Source: Thermasporomyces composti
GTDB taxonomy: Bacteria > Actinomycetota > Actinomycetes > Propionibacteriales > Actinopolymorphaceae
Assembly: GCF_003386795.1 (NCBI RefSeq)
Contig: NZ_QTUC01000001.1
Location: forward strand, 1,116,001 to 1,180,000
Direction of reading: 5' to 3'
Length of the DNA stretch: 64,000 bases
Under the pieces are notes generated by a model. The model saw only the letters and a list, made by a program, of their open reading frames with translations. It had not been told where the DNA came from and did no database searches. Positions 26,355-48,212 of the stretch are shown piece by piece. The position numbers and the translations under genes are program-made. The first letter of the stretch is position 1; each line of letters opens with the position of its first letter.

Positions 26355-26463
26355 CCCATTCGGCGCGTGGTCCTCGCACCCGCGGAGACGCCGACCCAGC
26401 GCACGACGCCGGAGTCCTCGACGCCTGAGTCCTCCAGCGGCACCGCCCTCGCTGACTCGGCCG

Positions 26464-33837: not shown

Positions 33838-34257
33838 TCAGTCGAGGGCGCGGCGGAGCTGCTCGGCCGCGGTGTCGACGTCGATCTCGCCCCTGGCCAG
33901 ACGGTTGAGGATCTCCTCCCTGCTCGAGCGAGGTTCGGGCGCGTTCGGCGCCGGCTCCAGGCCAAGTTTCGCCAGAAGATCGGCGTAGCGCTGGCGCGCG
34001 GTCGGGTAGCTCACGCCGAGGTGCCGCTCGACCTCGCGCATGTTGCCGCGTGAGACGAGGAACACCCGGAGCAGCTCACGCTCGGCGTCGGTCAGACCGC
34101 AGAACGCGCAGGACTCGAAGACGCCCGAGAGCTCGCTCCCGCAGGAGCCGCACCCCAGCCGGGTCACCCGCAGCCCGGATCCGCACACCGGGCAGTCCCT
34201 GGGCGGACGGTACGCGGGCGGACCTGCCTCGGGGTGGTAGCCGGCCGTACCGCTCAC
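33838..34257 (-). CDS. DUF2089-type zinc-ribbon HTH protein
   Basis: This 139-residue protein has a CPVCGSGL...CGSCGSELSG zinc ribbon followed by CAFCGLTD. A helical domain then reads RELLRVFLVSRGNMREVERH and LGVSYPTARQRYADLLAKLG, typical of the DUF2089 winged/sigma-like HTH. It ends with a short helix (REEILNRLARGEIDVDTAAEQLRRA) like a SHOCT domain. It should act as a DNA-binding regulator. The GTG start overlaps the upstream stop as GTGA, so it is co-translated with the beta-rich protein behind it, a conserved pairing. Confidence 0.83.
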   Translation of the reverse strand: MSGTAGYHPEAGPPAYRPPRDCPVCGSGLRVTRLGCGSCGSELSGVFESCAFCGLTDAERELLRVFLVSRGNMREVERHLGVSYPTARQRYADLLAKLGLEPAPNAPEPRSSREEILNRLARGEIDVDTAAEQLRRALD

Positions 34258-35357
34258 GGCGCCTCTTTCACAGTCGCCATCCCCATCACGACCTCGAGGT
34301 CGACGGTCGCGTCGCCGAGGCCGACGACGTGCTCCTCGCGGTCCTTGCCGGGGGGATCCCACTGGACGCGCCCAAGCTGCACGTCGGGTCGGATCCGGAC
34401 GCTGGACTGCGGGAGCAGCCGGAGCTGGAGCGATCCGGACTCCACCCGCAGTCTGGAGCGACCCTTGGTGATCTTCCCCTCGACCTGCGCCGACCCGGCC
34501 TGGACCAGCAGGTCCACGGGCCCCACGACGTCACGGACGCGGGCCGACCCGGCAGTCACCCGAACCTGCTCGAGCTTGGGGATGCGCTCGGCGTTGACGC
34601 TGCCCGCCGTGACCTCCACCTCGACGGTCAGGCTCGGGTTCACCCGGACCGACAGCTCCCGACCCAGCTCGAAGACGCGGTCCTGCAGGTCGCGCAGGGA
34701 ACGCGTCCGCATCAGGGTGAACCCGTCGATCGAGGCGCCGAACTCACCCTCGCTGCTGACCAGGAGCGTGTCGCCCTCCTGGCGGACGACGTGCGGACCG
34801 TCGACGGCGACCGTGGAGACGAAAGGCTCGCCGATGATCCGGACGCGGCGCCCCACGGCGCGGACGCGGAGGCGGTTGGCGGTCGCGGGCGCCGGCGCCG
34901 ACGGACCGGCCTCGCTCGTCGAGGTGGTGTCGGTCGTGGTCGTGCTGCCACTCACCTCGTCGATGCGGGCCTTCGCCTCCTCGGGCGTGAGCCGTCCCGC
35001 CGCGACGTCCTCGAGAATCGCGCGAATCGTGTCCCCGGCGGATCCTGCCGCGCCGGCTGCGCCCTCCGTCGGCGACGTCGTCCTGTCGGCCGACGACGTG
35101 GCGCCCGCGGTCTCCGACCGCGAGTTCTCGGCGGTCTGGGACGTGCCGGTCTCGGACCTGGTGGTCTCCGACGTCGTGGTCTCAGACGGGGTGGCCTCGC
35201 TCGGCCCGCTCGCCGCGGGCTCACCCGAGTCCGCCGACACGGCACCGTTCGCACCGGACGCGCGCGAGGGGCTGTCGCTCGGAGGGGCGCCGTCGCTGGG
35301 AGAGCCGACCGGGTCGGTGGCCTCCTCCCATGGGTCAGGAGATGTCTGCTCCGACAT
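34254..35357 (-). CDS. Partner protein of DUF2089: disordered N-terminus plus beta-rich adhesin-like domain
   Basis: This 367-residue protein opens with a Ser/Thr/Glu-rich unfolded stretch (1-105). A SHOCT-like helix follows (TIRAILEDVAAGRLTPEEAKARIDE, about 110-134), then another Thr-rich linker and a long beta-solenoid-like domain of repeated strands of the form VRVTAGSARVRDVVG / VDLLVQAGSAQVEG / LRVESGSLQLRLLP. It resembles DUF4097/polymer-forming proteins. The same SHOCT-type helix ends its DUF2089 partner, suggesting the two bind each other or share control. The ribosome binding site is GGGGAGG. Function unknown. Confidence 0.8.
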   Translation of the reverse strand: MSEQTSPDPWEEATDPVGSPSDGAPPSDSPSRASGANGAVSADSGEPAASGPSEATPSETTTSETTRSETGTSQTAENSRSETAGATSSADRTTSPTEGAAGAAGSAGDTIRAILEDVAAGRLTPEEAKARIDEVSGSTTTTDTTSTSEAGPSAPAPATANRLRVRAVGRRVRIIGEPFVSTVAVDGPHVVRQEGDTLLVSSEGEFGASIDGFTLMRTRSLRDLQDRVFELGRELSVRVNPSLTVEVEVTAGSVNAERIPKLEQVRVTAGSARVRDVVGPVDLLVQAGSAQVEGKITKGRSRLRVESGSLQLRLLPQSSVRIRPDVQLGRVQWDPPGKDREEHVVGLGDATVDLEVVMGMATVKEAP

Positions 35358-42999: not shown

Positions 43000-43899
43000 A
43001 TGCGGTGGGACAGCGGACCCGGCGACTCGCCCGTCGACATCGCCGAGATCGGCGGGCCGTCGCGACGGACCTGGCCCCGTTGGTTCCGGTCGGTGGCCCT
43101 AGGGGTGGCGGCGGTCGGTGGCGCCTGGCTGCTGCTCGCCGCCCTCACCCGCTCCGACGTGACGACGGCGGTGGAGCCGCCTCGCCTCACCGACCAGTTT
43201 CGGGCAGAGCTCGGCGTCACGGTCCGCAACGCCGGAGACGAGCACCAAACGATGACCTTGCTCGCCGTTCCCGAGCTGCCAGGGCTGTCCTTCCGCGGCG
43301 TCCGCGACAGCGCGGGCGAGACACTCCAGGACGACCTGCCCGACCTTCCCCCGCACGCGAGCGTCGCCTTCACCCTGCTCTGGCAGGTCGAGGACTGTGC
43401 CGCCGCGCTCACCCTGGACGACGCTCCCGTGCGCCTCGACCTCAAGATCGGGACGGGCTTCGGTGTGTCCGAGGTCGTCCACGTCACCGGAGGGCCGCGC
43501 CGAGAGCTCGTCCCCGCTGTCTGCCGGCGACACCCCGACCGAGGAATCCCCCAGGCGGTCGACCGGATGGTGACCCCACGCTGGAACACCGTGGACGTCC
43601 ACATCACCGTTCGGAACGTCGGTGGCCGTGGGCTCGTTCTCCGCTCCGCCGAGCTGCCGGCCGGCTGGGACGAGGCCGGTCAGGTCACCGACCGCAGCGG
43701 CGTCCGCCACCTTCCCGTCGGTGAGGAACGGACCTTCGTCCTGCGGTTCCACGCGCACGACTGCGCGGCGCCGGTCCAGGGCCCGGCCCGACTGACGCTG
43801 CGGTTCGACACCGAGGGCTCCCGCCGGACCGAGGAGCTCGAGGTCGTCGTGGCCGACTCCTGGCAGAACGTCCTCGGCGTCTGCGCGGGGCCGTCGTAG
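43000..43899 (+). CDS. Membrane-anchored protein with two beta-sandwich repeats
   Basis: This is a 299-residue protein of unknown family. It has a cytoplasmic N-terminus (MRWDSGPGDSPVDIAEI), a single membrane helix (VALGVAAVGGAWLLLAALTR, about 32-51), then an extracellular region with two similar domains. Each domain has VTVRNAG / ITVRNVG and ends with a Cys-containing strand (VEDCAAALTLDD, HAHDCAAPVQGP). These look like two Ig-like domains for binding or adhesion. The open frame extends further left but lacks coding character; ATG 43000 fits. It is convergent with the giant ATPase. Confidence 0.72.
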   Translation: MRWDSGPGDSPVDIAEIGGPSRRTWPRWFRSVALGVAAVGGAWLLLAALTRSDVTTAVEPPRLTDQFRAELGVTVRNAGDEHQTMTLLAVPELPGLSFRGVRDSAGETLQDDLPDLPPHASVAFTLLWQVEDCAAALTLDDAPVRLDLKIGTGFGVSEVVHVTGGPRRELVPAVCRRHPDRGIPQAVDRMVTPRWNTVDVHITVRNVGGRGLVLRSAELPAGWDEAGQVTDRSGVRHLPVGEERTFVLRFHAHDCAAPVQGPARLTLRFDTEGSRRTEELEVVVADSWQNVLGVCAGPS

Positions 43900-43984: not shown

Positions 43985-46900
43985 TCACCGTGCCCGCTCG
44001 TCCACGTCGCGGGGGTCTGAGGAGGCACCCGCCTCGGGGGAGCGCATCGCGTTCACCATTCCCGCGTTGACAGGCCCCGCGTTCACGGGCCCCGCGTTCA
44101 CGGGCATGCCGGTGTCCGCCACCTCCGCGGGGATCCCGGTCTCCGTCGACATCCCGACCCCGGGTGGCGCGCCGGCCGCGACGCCAGGCTCACCGCCCAC
44201 GTCCGGGTGGCTCTGCTCCATCGCAAGCGGAGGTCCCTCGAACTGCGGCAGGTCGACGATCTCGACCATGGGCCGTGCCGCGCCGCGGGTGCGCCGACGC
44301 GCCGCGTCGACCGCCAGGTCGGCGACGTAGGTCGCGAGTCGCGCGTTGCGCAGCCGGGGATCCGGCGGGCGCGTGGCGAGGAGTTCACCGGCCCAGCGAG
44401 CCGTCTCCTCTGTCGTCGTCGCGCCACGCTGCTCGACGACTCTGCCGAACACCACCGCGTACTCGCTCGCGTCGAAGTCGTGGGTGCGGACCACCCGCCA
44501 CCACGCGGCGAGGGCCGGGCTGACGTCGACCATGCGGCGGTAGCCGTCGCTCGCGGCGAAGGCCACGATCTGCAGCGCCGACCCGTGCACGCTGATCAGC
44601 CGGTGCAGCTCCGCGGCGAGCACCGCGCCGTTGTGCGGCCGGGCGATGAGCTGGTCGATGCCGTGGATGGCGAGCAGACGTCGTCCCAGGCAACCTTCGA
44701 CGCACGCCCGTAGCTCGGCGACCGCGGTCGTCGGATCGGCGTTGGCGAAGTGCTCGTGACGGAGCCACACCGCCGTCCCGTCGAAGCCACGGACGGTGAG
44801 TGTGCGCGCGGCCACCTCGACGGCGAGGCTGCGGCCGGTCCCGGGCGGGCCGGCGACGACGAGCCGGATGTCGGCGTCCGGGTTCATGACGATCTCGCGG
44901 AGCGCGGACACGAGCGCCGCCTGGCCCACGATGCGGTCGATCAGCGCCATCGCGCGCGCTCGCGGGCTCATCCGCTCGACCCTGCCGTTGGCTTGGCCCG
45001 GCGACGGACCCAGCGGCGCGGCGCGGACGGCGCCCTCCGGCGTCCCGGAGGGACCCGGCGACCACACCTCCCCTGGTCCCGCGGCGGTGTCGTGGCCGTT
45101 GGGCCGGTGACCGGCCTGGTGGTCCGTCACGACATCAGGCCGCGGCGACGGTGGAGTCGCGGCACCGGGCCAACCATCAGCTGACACGGCACCAGCGAGG
45201 TTCGACCCGTCCTCACCGCCATACGTGGGGTCCGCGGCTCCCCACGAGTCCGCTCGGGCGGAGGGTGGGACGAGCTCAGACGACGCAGGCTCGGCCCGGC
45301 TGGTGGACTCGCCGTGAGCCTCCTCAGCCACCCCGACGCCCTCACCGTCAGCTCGACCGTCGGCATCGGCCCTTCCGTCGGTGGACGCCACGCCATTGAC
45401 GCCATTGGTCGCGGTGGCGGGCTCGACATCGGCGCCAGGCTCGCCGCCGATGTCGGGCATGCCGCTGCCGCCGGGCACGCCGTTGGTGCTGTGCTCACGA
45501 CGGGCGCTGTGCTCGCCACGACGATGAAGCTCGCCGCGGCGATGAGGCTCGCCCGGGGGATGGGACTCGCCGCCATAGACGCCAGGCACGTCGGTGACGC
45601 CGGTGACACCGACGACCGCGTCGGGATCGGCCACGCCGTTCGTGTGGGCCGGTGCCGCAGGATCTCGTGGCCCCTGGACGTCCCCTGGCTCCTCGATGTC
45701 CGGTCCCTCGGCGAGGGTGGACCCCTCCACCACGGGACGCTCCTCGACCGGCAGCGCCACCTCCACTCGTGCGGTCTCCGGTGGCGTCGGCGACGCGCCG
45801 TCAGGAGCGCTGTGCGACCCTGCAGCCGTCCCGGCCGGCTCTCCGCCGGAGGCGCCACCCGACTCCGGCTCGACGACGACCGGCGGGGCCGTCTCGGCTC
45901 CCTCCGCGCCGGGCCGCCGCGACTCGGCCTCGGCCGCTCCCGTGGGACGCGGCCGAGACCCCAGGGATGCACCCGGCGAGGCCTCCGCCTCGACCGCACG
46001 CACGTCGTGCTGAGTGCCGTTCACGGTGCCGTTCGCTCGGGCGCCGTTCGCTGATGTCGCGGCAGGCTCGCCCACCTGCGCGACGTTCGCGGCACCGGCG
46101 TCCGTGTCACCGTGCACAGGATCACCGTGCGGAGAATCACCGGGCAGAGAATCGCCGTGCAGAGAAGCACCGGGCGCAGGATCTCCGGGCGCAGGGTCGT
46201 GGCGCGCGGCGTCGTGGTGTGCGTCGTCGTCCCGGTGCGCAGCATCCTCCTGACCGGCATCTTCCTGGCCGGCATCCTCCTGGCCGGCCTGCTCGTGGCC
46301 GGCATCCTCGTGCGCGACGTCGACGTGGGCGGTGTCGACGTGACCGGTGTCGTGGTGACCGGTGTCGTGGTGGCCGGAGTCGTGGTGGGCGGTGTCGTCC
46401 GACGCGGTCTCGGCCACGTCCTCCGTCGTCACGCCGCCCCGCGCGGACGCCGCCTCGCCTTCGTGTCCACGCGTCTCCGGCGGCGTGTCCTCTCGTGTCG
46501 GGACAGCCTCGCTTGGTCGAGCGTCCTCGTCATCGGCCGACCGAGAGGGGGTGGCCACACCGGCGTCACCGACCTCACCTGGCCGCTCAGCCGGTCCCGC
46601 GTGTTCGGCCGGTCCTGTCTGGTCCTTCACCCCGGCCTGTGCGGCCGTCGGTGCGGCCACTCCAGCCTCCGTGGAGGGCCGGGACTGCTCGGAGGGCGAG
46701 AGCTGCTCGGCTGGGTGAGCCTCGCGCCCTGCGTTCGCCCCCGCCTCGTTCGCCTCTTGCCGCGGCTGTGCCGCGCGAGGACCTTCCTGGCTCGCTCGTA
46801 CGACACCCGGTGCGGGGCCGAAGGGGAAGGCGTGCTCCACCGCCACCCATCCCGGCATCGCTGCCCCGCCCGTCAGCGGGTGCCGCACCCGGCGCACTCG

Positions 46901-47974
46901 CGTCAGCCGGCGTACGTCCTCCTGGAACGCGGTGACGGGCACCCGACAGTCGCGTGGCGTGACGGGTGTGCCGGGCAGCCCTTGCACGACGCCGGTGAGC
47001 CGGACCGCCAGGTCGAGCCAGGCCCGACACAGCTGGAACTGACCGGCGACCAGTGCACGAGACAACCAGGCCCGGATCTGACGCTGCCACGGCTCCGGCT
47101 TCCACTGGCGAGCCCGCACCGGCAGCTGGTCGCGGACGGACGCGTAGAGCTCGCCACGGATGCCGACCGCCAGCTCGGCGGGCGGCTCGACGACGCCCGC
47201 CTGAATCAGCAACTGGATGAAGGCCGCATCCGCGTCGCCCCCACCCGGGACCATCGCATTGAGGCGCTCGTGGGCGGCCATCCATCCGTCGACGATCCAG
47301 CTCAGGTATCCCACGGGACCGGTCAACTCGGGGACGAGCGCGACGACCTCGTCGTCCGCCGCCTCGGCCCACCGCTCCTCGAGGAGAGTCCAGTCCGGCG
47401 ATCCCTGTGGTGCGGTGAGCGTCGCCTCCACCAGGTCGGGGTCGCGACGAGCCGCGGTGTGCAGCCGGAGCAGCGCCTCGCGGCGCGGCTCCAGCGGTGC
47501 CAAGCCTTCGAGGCGTCGCAGCAGCTCGATGGTGAGGTCCCAGGCGACCTCACGGCGTGCCCGGTCGTCCCCCGCGGCACGGAACAGCTGGCCCCCTGGC
47601 GGACGCCACGGCGCCGCCGGCGCGATCCAGCCCTGAGCGGGCAGGCTGTCCGCATTCGGCCCGAGGCGGAACCGGCGCACGACGTCGACGTCGATCCGCA
47701 TGCGCGAGCCCGCCCTGATCGCGACGTCTCCGCACAGGAAGGCGACGATTCCTTGGGCGTCAGCAACGACGGCCGGCACCGGGGTCCGCAACTCGGGATG
47801 TTTGCTGACGGTGAACTGGGAGGACCGCTCGTCGGCTACCAGCGCGTCGATGCGGGCGGACAGCTCCTCGACGAGCCCGTCCCGCACCCTCCACGGACCG
47901 TAGGAGTACAGGTCGATGACGGGTTCATCGCCGAACAGCAGGTCGAGAGCTCCGCGCAGCCCGGCCTCACTCAT
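43985..47974 (-). CDS. Giant ATPase with repeat-built disordered centre
   Basis: The protein has about 1329 residues. An ordered N-terminal domain (about 1-390) does not match a family I know (LRGALDLLFGDEPVIDLYSY...; helical with WRVRDGLVEELSARID). Residues about 390-980 are disordered, acidic, Ala/Pro/Glu-rich, with 5-residue repeats rich in His and Asp (HHDTG, QEDAG). A P-loop ATPase domain follows (about 990-1250): RLVVAGPPGTGRSLAVEVAA (Walker A) and RRLLAIHGIDQLIARPHN (Walker B-like, Asp), like AAA/CbxX-type proteins. The C-terminus carries VNAGP repeats. ATG 47974 follows AAGGGTGG. It might be a regulator or chaperone of a surface system. Confidence 0.8.
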   Translation of the reverse strand: MSEAGLRGALDLLFGDEPVIDLYSYGPWRVRDGLVEELSARIDALVADERSSQFTVSKHPELRTPVPAVVADAQGIVAFLCGDVAIRAGSRMRIDVDVVRRFRLGPNADSLPAQGWIAPAAPWRPPGGQLFRAAGDDRARREVAWDLTIELLRRLEGLAPLEPRREALLRLHTAARRDPDLVEATLTAPQGSPDWTLLEERWAEAADDEVVALVPELTGPVGYLSWIVDGWMAAHERLNAMVPGGGDADAAFIQLLIQAGVVEPPAELAVGIRGELYASVRDQLPVRARQWKPEPWQRQIRAWLSRALVAGQFQLCRAWLDLAVRLTGVVQGLPGTPVTPRDCRVPVTAFQEDVRRLTRVRRVRHPLTGGAAMPGWVAVEHAFPFGPAPGVVRASQEGPRAAQPRQEANEAGANAGREAHPAEQLSPSEQSRPSTEAGVAAPTAAQAGVKDQTGPAEHAGPAERPGEVGDAGVATPSRSADDEDARPSEAVPTREDTPPETRGHEGEAASARGGVTTEDVAETASDDTAHHDSGHHDTGHHDTGHVDTAHVDVAHEDAGHEQAGQEDAGQEDAGQEDAAHRDDDAHHDAARHDPAPGDPAPGASLHGDSLPGDSPHGDPVHGDTDAGAANVAQVGEPAATSANGARANGTVNGTQHDVRAVEAEASPGASLGSRPRPTGAAEAESRRPGAEGAETAPPVVVEPESGGASGGEPAGTAAGSHSAPDGASPTPPETARVEVALPVEERPVVEGSTLAEGPDIEEPGDVQGPRDPAAPAHTNGVADPDAVVGVTGVTDVPGVYGGESHPPGEPHRRGELHRRGEHSARREHSTNGVPGGSGMPDIGGEPGADVEPATATNGVNGVASTDGRADADGRADGEGVGVAEEAHGESTSRAEPASSELVPPSARADSWGAADPTYGGEDGSNLAGAVSADGWPGAATPPSPRPDVVTDHQAGHRPNGHDTAAGPGEVWSPGPSGTPEGAVRAAPLGPSPGQANGRVERMSPRARAMALIDRIVGQAALVSALREIVMNPDADIRLVVAGPPGTGRSLAVEVAARTLTVRGFDGTAVWLRHEHFANADPTTAVAELRACVEGCLGRRLLAIHGIDQLIARPHNGAVLAAELHRLISVHGSALQIVAFAASDGYRRMVDVSPALAAWWRVVRTHDFDASEYAVVFGRVVEQRGATTTEETARWAGELLATRPPDPRLRNARLATYVADLAVDAARRRTRGAARPMVEIVDLPQFEGPPLAMEQSHPDVGGEPGVAAGAPPGVGMSTETGIPAEVADTGMPVNAGPVNAGPVNAGMVNAMRSPEAGASSDPRDVDERAR
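44063..44107. repeat. Tandem 15-bp repeat (VNAGP)
   Basis: Three units of the form CCCGCGTTCACGGGC sit side by side near the C-terminus of the giant ATPase gene, encoding VNAGP pentapeptides. The period of 15 equals that of the larger central arrays. Confidence 0.85.
45491..45580. repeat. Tandem 18-bp repeat array
   Basis: Five diverged 18-bp units with a shared GCTCGCC core encode hexapeptides such as HRRGEL/HRRGEH in the disordered region of the giant ATPase. Confidence 0.7.
46110..46199. repeat. Tandem 15-bp repeat array (G-D-x-x-H/P)
   Basis: Six units matching CCG(T/G)GC-N4-GATC(A/G)-type sequence, period 15, start at 46110, 46125, 46140, 46155, 46170 and 46185. They encode PHGD/LPGD-like pentapeptides. 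Confidence 0.85.
46249..46399. repeat. Tandem 15-bp repeat array (HxDxG / QEDAG)
   Basis: Ten consecutive units of 15 bp, such as CGTGGTGACCGGTGT at 46351, encode His/Asp- then Glu/Asp-rich pentapeptides. Units grade from one half of the array to the other, as expected from stepwise duplication. Confidence 0.9.
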
Positions 47975-48212
47975 GACCACCCTTGTCCTTCGTGCCTGCG
48001 GCGTCGCGTCGTCCGCGTCGAGTGCGCTTTTCCCGGCACGATCGAGGCGCGGCGACCATGATCCGCGGGCAGCCTAGCGAAGCGCGACGGCGAGATCATG
48101 TGGCGTCGTTCACGGTCACCGACGCCGACGACACCGGTCAACCGTCAGGCCGACGACGCCGACTCACCGTCGCCCGACGGGACCGGCCGAGCGTCAGGAC
48201 GCGGCACCGGGC

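Follow-up and report, generated by a model that had tools for sequence, protein, structure and literature searches.

The 64,000-nucleotide stretch of Thermasporomyces composti DNA analysed here (the window; positions 1116001-1180000 of C1, the single contig of a 4.37 Mb Actinopolymorphaceae genome) carries a gene whose 1329-residue product was read, in an original prediction made from the sequence letters, as a giant P-loop ATPase with a disordered centre made of 5-residue repeats. On balance, this product is better regarded as descended from a chaperone with several AAA+ domains, catalysis having been lost, and as probably serving now as a scaffold or adaptor. It consists of a conserved N-terminal domain (N-domain), a low-complexity linker of hypervariable length and a single AAA+ domain in which the ATP residues are replaced. 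The gene and its parts are listed below in window positions; the ATG at 47974 agrees with the starts of the orthologues.

43985..47974, minus strand: whole gene, 1329 aa, ATG start at 47974
46796..47974, minus strand: N-domain, aa 1-393, mostly alpha-helical, conserved (identity across genomes and structural model)
44966..46795, minus strand: acidic Pro/Ala/Gly-rich linker, about aa 394-1003, of hypervariable length (lengths and composition in eight genomes)
44195..44965, minus strand: degenerate AAA+ domain, aa 1004-1260, an orthologue of the first AAA+ domain (AAA1) of three-AAA relatives (structural model, PDB folds, tree, and BLAST with 140 bits for AAA1 and no more than 46 for AAA2/AAA3)
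44828..44851, minus strand: Walker A position, GPPGTGRS, aa 1042-1049, Arg in place of Lys (sequence and alignment)
44648..44683, minus strand: Walker B position, RRLLAIHGIDQL, aa 1098-1109, His-Gly in place of Asp-Glu (alignment)
46249..46399, minus strand: 15-bp array, HHDTG / HVDTA / QEDAG pentapeptides, aa 526-576 (Tandem Repeats Finder, TRF, and in-frame translation, as for the next three)
46107..46199, minus strand: 15/30-bp array, GDPAP / HGDSL pentapeptides, aa 592-622
45511..45571, minus strand: 18-bp array, GEPHRR / GELHRR hexapeptides, aa 802-822
44061..44107, minus strand: 15-bp array, VNAGP three times, C-terminal tail, aa 1290-1304

Searches of Pfam and NCBIfam with the C-terminal domain returned AAA matches, all of them sub-threshold. 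Its AlphaFold2 (AF2) model, with a predicted local distance difference test score (pLDDT) of 90, was matched best by CbbX in both structural comparisons, namely 3syk in Foldseek (E 3e-9) and 3syl in VIA (Z 18.5, rmsd 5.3, 249 aligned), other AAA+ structures following within about 1 to 1.5 Z. The profile of this domain (AAA1) had EccA1 as its best PDB sequence (9lur, E 3.3e-6). The modelled domain thus has a CbbX/EccA-type AAA+ fold. The motifs of catalysis, on the other hand, are largely gone. In the window copy the Walker A Lys is Arg, the Walker B Asp-Glu is His-Gly (IHG) and the arginine finger is Trp; at sensor-1 the canonical VAGY aligns to AFAA, a DGY standing four residues further on. 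Across the family, the Walker A Lys is replaced in seven of eight members (by R, G, A, T, T, T and M) and kept only in Actinopolymorpha alba (L024), the catalytic Glu of Walker B is Gly in 8/8, the arginine finger is Trp in 7/8, and sensor-2 Arg gives way to G, S or K in seven of the eight others of the pseudo-AAA+ group. An ATPase that still binds and hydrolyses ATP through a Walker A Arg would be in keeping with the intact fold, with the GKS of one relative and with the sensor-2 Arg retained in the window copy; this candidate was nevertheless rejected on the replaced catalytic motifs, and we consider it improbable, given that the catalytic Glu and the arginine finger are replaced in the window copy and in nearly the whole family, and that four relatives carry GPPDVGxx loops with neither the P-loop Lys nor the Thr/Ser.

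The origin of this domain was traced with the N-domain, which was used to scan 84,980 genomes. Eighteen more distant relatives were found, nearly all in Actinomadura and neighbouring genera, plus Labedaea and one metagenome bin, and the complete ones (about 1143-1199 residues) consist of the same N-domain followed by three AAA+ domains. The window AAA+ domain scores 121-156 bits against their AAA1, at about 40% identity, and at most 47 bits against AAA2 and AAA3 (BLAST). In a maximum-likelihood tree, AAA1 and the window group are split from all intact AAA+ domains with a support of 100/100, the branching order inside the group being unsure owing to long branches. Degeneration is already seen in AAA1 of the three-AAA relatives, all 18 of which have lost both the Walker B Glu and the Thr/Ser of Walker A, Lys being kept in 17; in AAA2, AAA3 and the single AAA of relatives, Walker A is kept in 43/43 and Walker B in 42/43. 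The proteins of Actinomadura, Spirillospora, Actinoallomurus and Labedaea (an unnamed family; loci L041-L059) accordingly share with the window protein a homologous N-domain (35-41% identity; about 40% over 360 residues) and a homologous degenerate AAA1 (32-39% identity), but differ from it in the two intact SpoVK/CbbX-type AAA+ domains that follow and in the lack of a long linker between N-domain and AAA1. Proteins with this N-domain and a single AAA+, from Kribbella and further Propionibacteriales (L031-L037), likewise have a homologous N-domain (21-26%), whereas their AAA+ is intact and groups with AAA2/AAA3 rather than with AAA1.

A class-wide search of 395 genomes added relatives in which AAA1 is followed by two intact AAA+ domains or by a single one (a 907-residue form). 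Outside the family, proteins with N-domain and AAA1 invariably carry an intact AAA+ domain or two; the copies of Actinopolymorphaceae are alone in lacking any. The window protein ends past AAA1, and both motors are absent in all eight family members. By parsimony, the motors were lost in Actinopolymorphaceae. As a separate observation, one Spirillospora genome (G413; L109-L112) holds four paralogues in which N-domain and degenerate AAA1 precede a single intact AAA+ domain or a pair of them, and in its 907-aa copy the Walker A Lys is Arg (GPEGTGRR).

No separate AAA2/AAA3 partner gene acting in trans was found with AAA_lid_6 in the family genomes, each of which holds one AAA_lid_6 gene. In the window genome and in three other family genomes this gene is cbbX, next to rbcL and rbcS:

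L073:5626-8685 (G000:C1 about 1779.6-1782.7 kb), window genome: Rubisco operon rbcL, rbcS, cbbX

The sole other CbbX-type AAA+ of the window genome is therefore the Rubisco activase, as it lies beside rbcL and rbcS. A role as Rubisco activase, raised by the CbbX fold match, was ruled out for the protein under study, the true cbbX being the other gene by Rubisco. The same cbbX with rbcL upstream was seen in three relatives (L076, L077, L078). In another genome (G001), the sole AAA_lid_6 protein (L074:8819-11398; L075) has an 859-aa frame, is 43% identical to the window-genome cbbX and is encoded about 12 kb from a second EccB gene of a type VII secretion system (T7SS).

Loss of motors and motifs, together with a linker that drifts fast, could also be the mark of a decaying pseudogene whose linker expands without selection after motor loss. 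The gene is, however, present in all seven other Actinopolymorphaceae genomes searched (57-64% identity in the N-domain), the nearest relatives in the genome collection including A. pittospori, A. alba and A. rutila. It is syntenic with an MFS transporter gene and a convergent membrane protein gene in 7/7 relatives, with P450, MarR, AI-2E-like and ROK genes in most and with a divergent GNAT gene in several; the frame is open and synteny kept in 8/8 family genomes. In four close Actinopolymorpha species, the ratio of non-synonymous to synonymous substitution rates (dN/dS, Nei-Gojobori) lies between 0.26 and 0.38 in the N-domain and between 0.18 and 0.30 in the pseudo-AAA+ domain. Both folded domains evolve under purifying selection, and the protein is thus under constraint; on dN/dS and synteny a pseudogene was rejected as very improbable. 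Since it is under selection, yet without ATP-burning residues and without motors, the protein is probably a binding scaffold and not a machine.

Several observations weigh against the proposal of a non-catalytic scaffold descended from a chaperone. Nucleotide binding is possible in some members, A. alba retaining GPPGTGKS, and sensor-2 Arg is retained (RNAR) in the window copy. Both conserved flanking genes sit on the opposite strand, so the gene is not part of an operon with them. Finally, motor loss as against gain elsewhere is argued from parsimony and not from a rooted tree, and formally the motors may instead have been gained outside the family.

The N-domain, said in the original prediction to match nothing known, indeed had no match in Pfam or NCBIfam and none below E 0.5 among PDB sequences. 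Its identity falls from the level within the family to about 40% in Actinomadura and 21-26% in other Propionibacteriales. The AF2 model is all-helical and of middling confidence (pLDDT 76), and when compared from this model with PDB folds the domain reached E 1.5 at best in Foldseek and Z 4.5 over 81 residues in VIA. The latter hit, to the PCI domain of eIF3a, was discarded, its score being one that helical models are said to reach by chance; Pfam, PDB sequence, Foldseek and VIA-align searches likewise gave no convincing match to a tetratricopeptide repeat (TPR) or other known fold. The N-domain is possibly a new fold.

The linker is presumably disordered, judging by its composition, and has a net charge of -69 in the window protein. 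TRF reported 15-bp periods at 44061-44105 (three copies), 46242-46332 and 46325-46398, a 15/30-bp period at 46107-46194 and 18-bp periods at 45511-45571 and, weakly, at 46673-46710. The in-frame translations read DDTAHHDSGHHDTGHHDTGHVDTAHVDVAHEDAGHEQAGQEDAGQEDAGQE (aa 526-576), HDPAPGDPAPGASLHGDSLPGDSPHGDPVHG (aa 592-622) and MPVNAGPVNAGPVNA (aa 1290-1304). The real linker gave six TRF rows with scores up to 101, as opposed to a mean of 0.08 rows in 100 codon-order shuffles, one of which reached a score of 69; the autocorrelation of linker residues peaks at period 5, a height equalled in 0/500 shuffles. The in-frame 15-bp arrays in three regions and the 18-bp array, as first described, are thus borne out, and the repeats exceed chance in these shuffles of the linker. 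Two 15-bp arrays and the 18-bp array do lie in the linker, but the centre is not made of pentapeptides, which account for about 80 of its ~610 residues, and the VNAGP array, although real, belongs not to the centre but to the C-terminal tail behind the AAA+ domain.

The expectation that length can vary without loss of frame was supported, the linker ranging from about 70 to 645 residues among the eight genomes (645 in the window protein in this comparison and 275, 316, 164, 96, 93, 84 and 70 in seven relatives). No repeat sequence is common to the linkers of these genomes. Other, unrelated pentapeptide arrays occur instead, PSPEQ-like in the A. alba linker, ADAEP six to seven times in the L026 tail and SEDGG/SEDVG in the L030 tail. 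The arrays are lineage-specific; short tandem repeats thus recur in linker and tail, and their sequence is not kept. These comparisons also bear on the suggestion that the His/Asp pentapeptides bind metal, by which the protein would be a metal buffer or sensor. The 33 His of the window linker and its HHDTG-like pentapeptides speak for this, but the seven relatives have 0-7 His in their linkers and no His arrays, and no metal-related genes were found among the neighbours. Metal binding is therefore unsupported, only the window linker being His-rich and the arrays not being kept in relatives, and a metal-handling role is highly unlikely. Taken together, neither a constant repeat number among relatives nor a house-keeping family for the N-domain was found, and the catalytic motifs are replaced; the observation behind the original prediction consequently stands, while its enzymatic reading does not.

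The setting of the intact relatives gives a lead for the ancestral function. Behind the three-AAA gene, four Actinomadura genomes have genes for a MinD-like ATPase, DUF6177 and a T7SS cluster (mycosin, WXG100, EccB, EccD, EccC); this AAA-MinD-DUF6177-T7SS cluster suggests that type VII secretion has an accessory factor resembling EccA outside mycobacteria as well. In the Actinomadura loci L065-L069, the MinD/ParA-like ATPase is Pro-rich and the T7SS locus complete. Other three-AAA loci lie near pyruvate carboxylase and Ser/Thr kinase genes and are unlinked to EccB in the sequence examined; the view of the three-AAA relatives as strictly T7SS genes was thus rejected, EccB linkage being found in only four Actinomadura loci. 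Against the EccA family TIGR03922, three-AAA relatives scored 403.8, under the cut-off of 466.65, and the window protein had no match up to E 1. Nothing was found in the literature on DUF6177 or describing a family with this N-domain and pseudo-AAA1, most subscription journals being outside the coverage.

The window protein could itself be a T7SS accessory factor equivalent to EccA, its N-domain and pseudo-AAA+ domain still handling T7SS substrates. Besides the four Actinomadura loci, where the relatives stand at the edge of the cluster, and the EccA1 match of the AAA1 profile, this would agree with the presence of EccB in all eight family genomes; EccB is, however, common in Actinomycetota, the remaining Actinomadura loci are unlinked, the window protein falls outside TIGR03922, and the family gene is never near a T7SS. 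In the window genome the gene (C1:1160-1164 kb) and EccB (C1:2256061) are 1.09 Mb apart. The T7SS locus of this genome (L070, G000:C1:2247000-2266900) has a WXG100 pair, EccB, EccC-like and subtilase genes but lacks an EccA-like AAA+ gene. We regard a present T7SS role as rather unlikely. A defence system was also dismissed as a candidate, the window protein having no PADLOC match and the weak IetA and TRIP13 matches of its relatives reflecting generic AAA+ domains.

Returning to the scaffold or adaptor, a more detailed account may be put forward only tentatively: a triple-AAA+, secretion-linked chaperone would have shed both motors and kept a pseudo-AAA+ and a new-fold N-domain as an ATP-independent, tethered adaptor, the pentapeptide arrays being a by-product of a linker selected for flexibility and charge and not for sequence. 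As to the main and most economical reading itself, the ancestor would have been a dedicated chaperone in which the N-domain and pseudo-AAA1 selected or held the client for AAA2 and AAA3, and in Actinopolymorphaceae only the part holding client or partner would have been kept once the motors were lost. The N-domain would then bind one putative partner, and the pseudo-AAA+ domain another, unless it oligomerises. The linker would serve as a tether whose short-repeat copy number drifts because, as proposed, only its flexibility and acidity matter.

Catalytically dead AAA+ domains are already known. The Torsin activator LAP1/LULL1 is one such parallel, a degenerate AAA+ in which the fold is kept and catalysis lost. 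LonC is described as a degenerate AAA+ without ATP-powered unfolding (PMC3391209), and the DUF of EccC5 is a degenerated ATPase domain (PMC11154593). All three resemble the window protein in keeping the AAA+/ATPase fold without catalysis, but they belong to other lineages and none has its N-domain and hypervariable linker. Nearer in fold is the SpoVK-CbbX-EccA clade of dedicated chaperones, whose variable N-terminal domains recruit substrate (PMC10659427); CbbX and EccA1 are the closest structure and PDB sequence, and a variable N-domain precedes one AAA+ in both cases. The window protein differs from this clade in its replaced Walker A, Walker B, sensor-1 GY and arginine finger, and in an N-domain that is neither TPR/beta-helix, as in EccA, nor beta-prism. 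Here the lineage can be traced from two intact motors plus a dead domain to a dead domain that is conserved by itself, so that its role can be asked without motors. An annotation trap is also corrected, as gene finders label such proteins AAA ATPases.

The convergent neighbour that adjoins the gene in 7/7 relatives is placed as follows.

43039..43899 (start approximate), plus strand: protein predicted to cross the membrane once, no match in Pfam

It appears to be a membrane-anchored protein with two Cys-containing repeats, and the gap between the ends of the two genes is 85 bp in the window and about 5-10 bp in the relatives measured. Five further arrays of 15-bp period start in the window at 26404, 30798, 31384, 35133 and 56328, that at 35133-35199 being located in a 367-aa open reading frame (34254-35357, minus strand) without Pfam match. 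A 49-bp tandem duplication of two copies (48116-48209) covers the end of the region of the M20 peptidase gene together with the gap that lies upstream of the 1329-aa gene.

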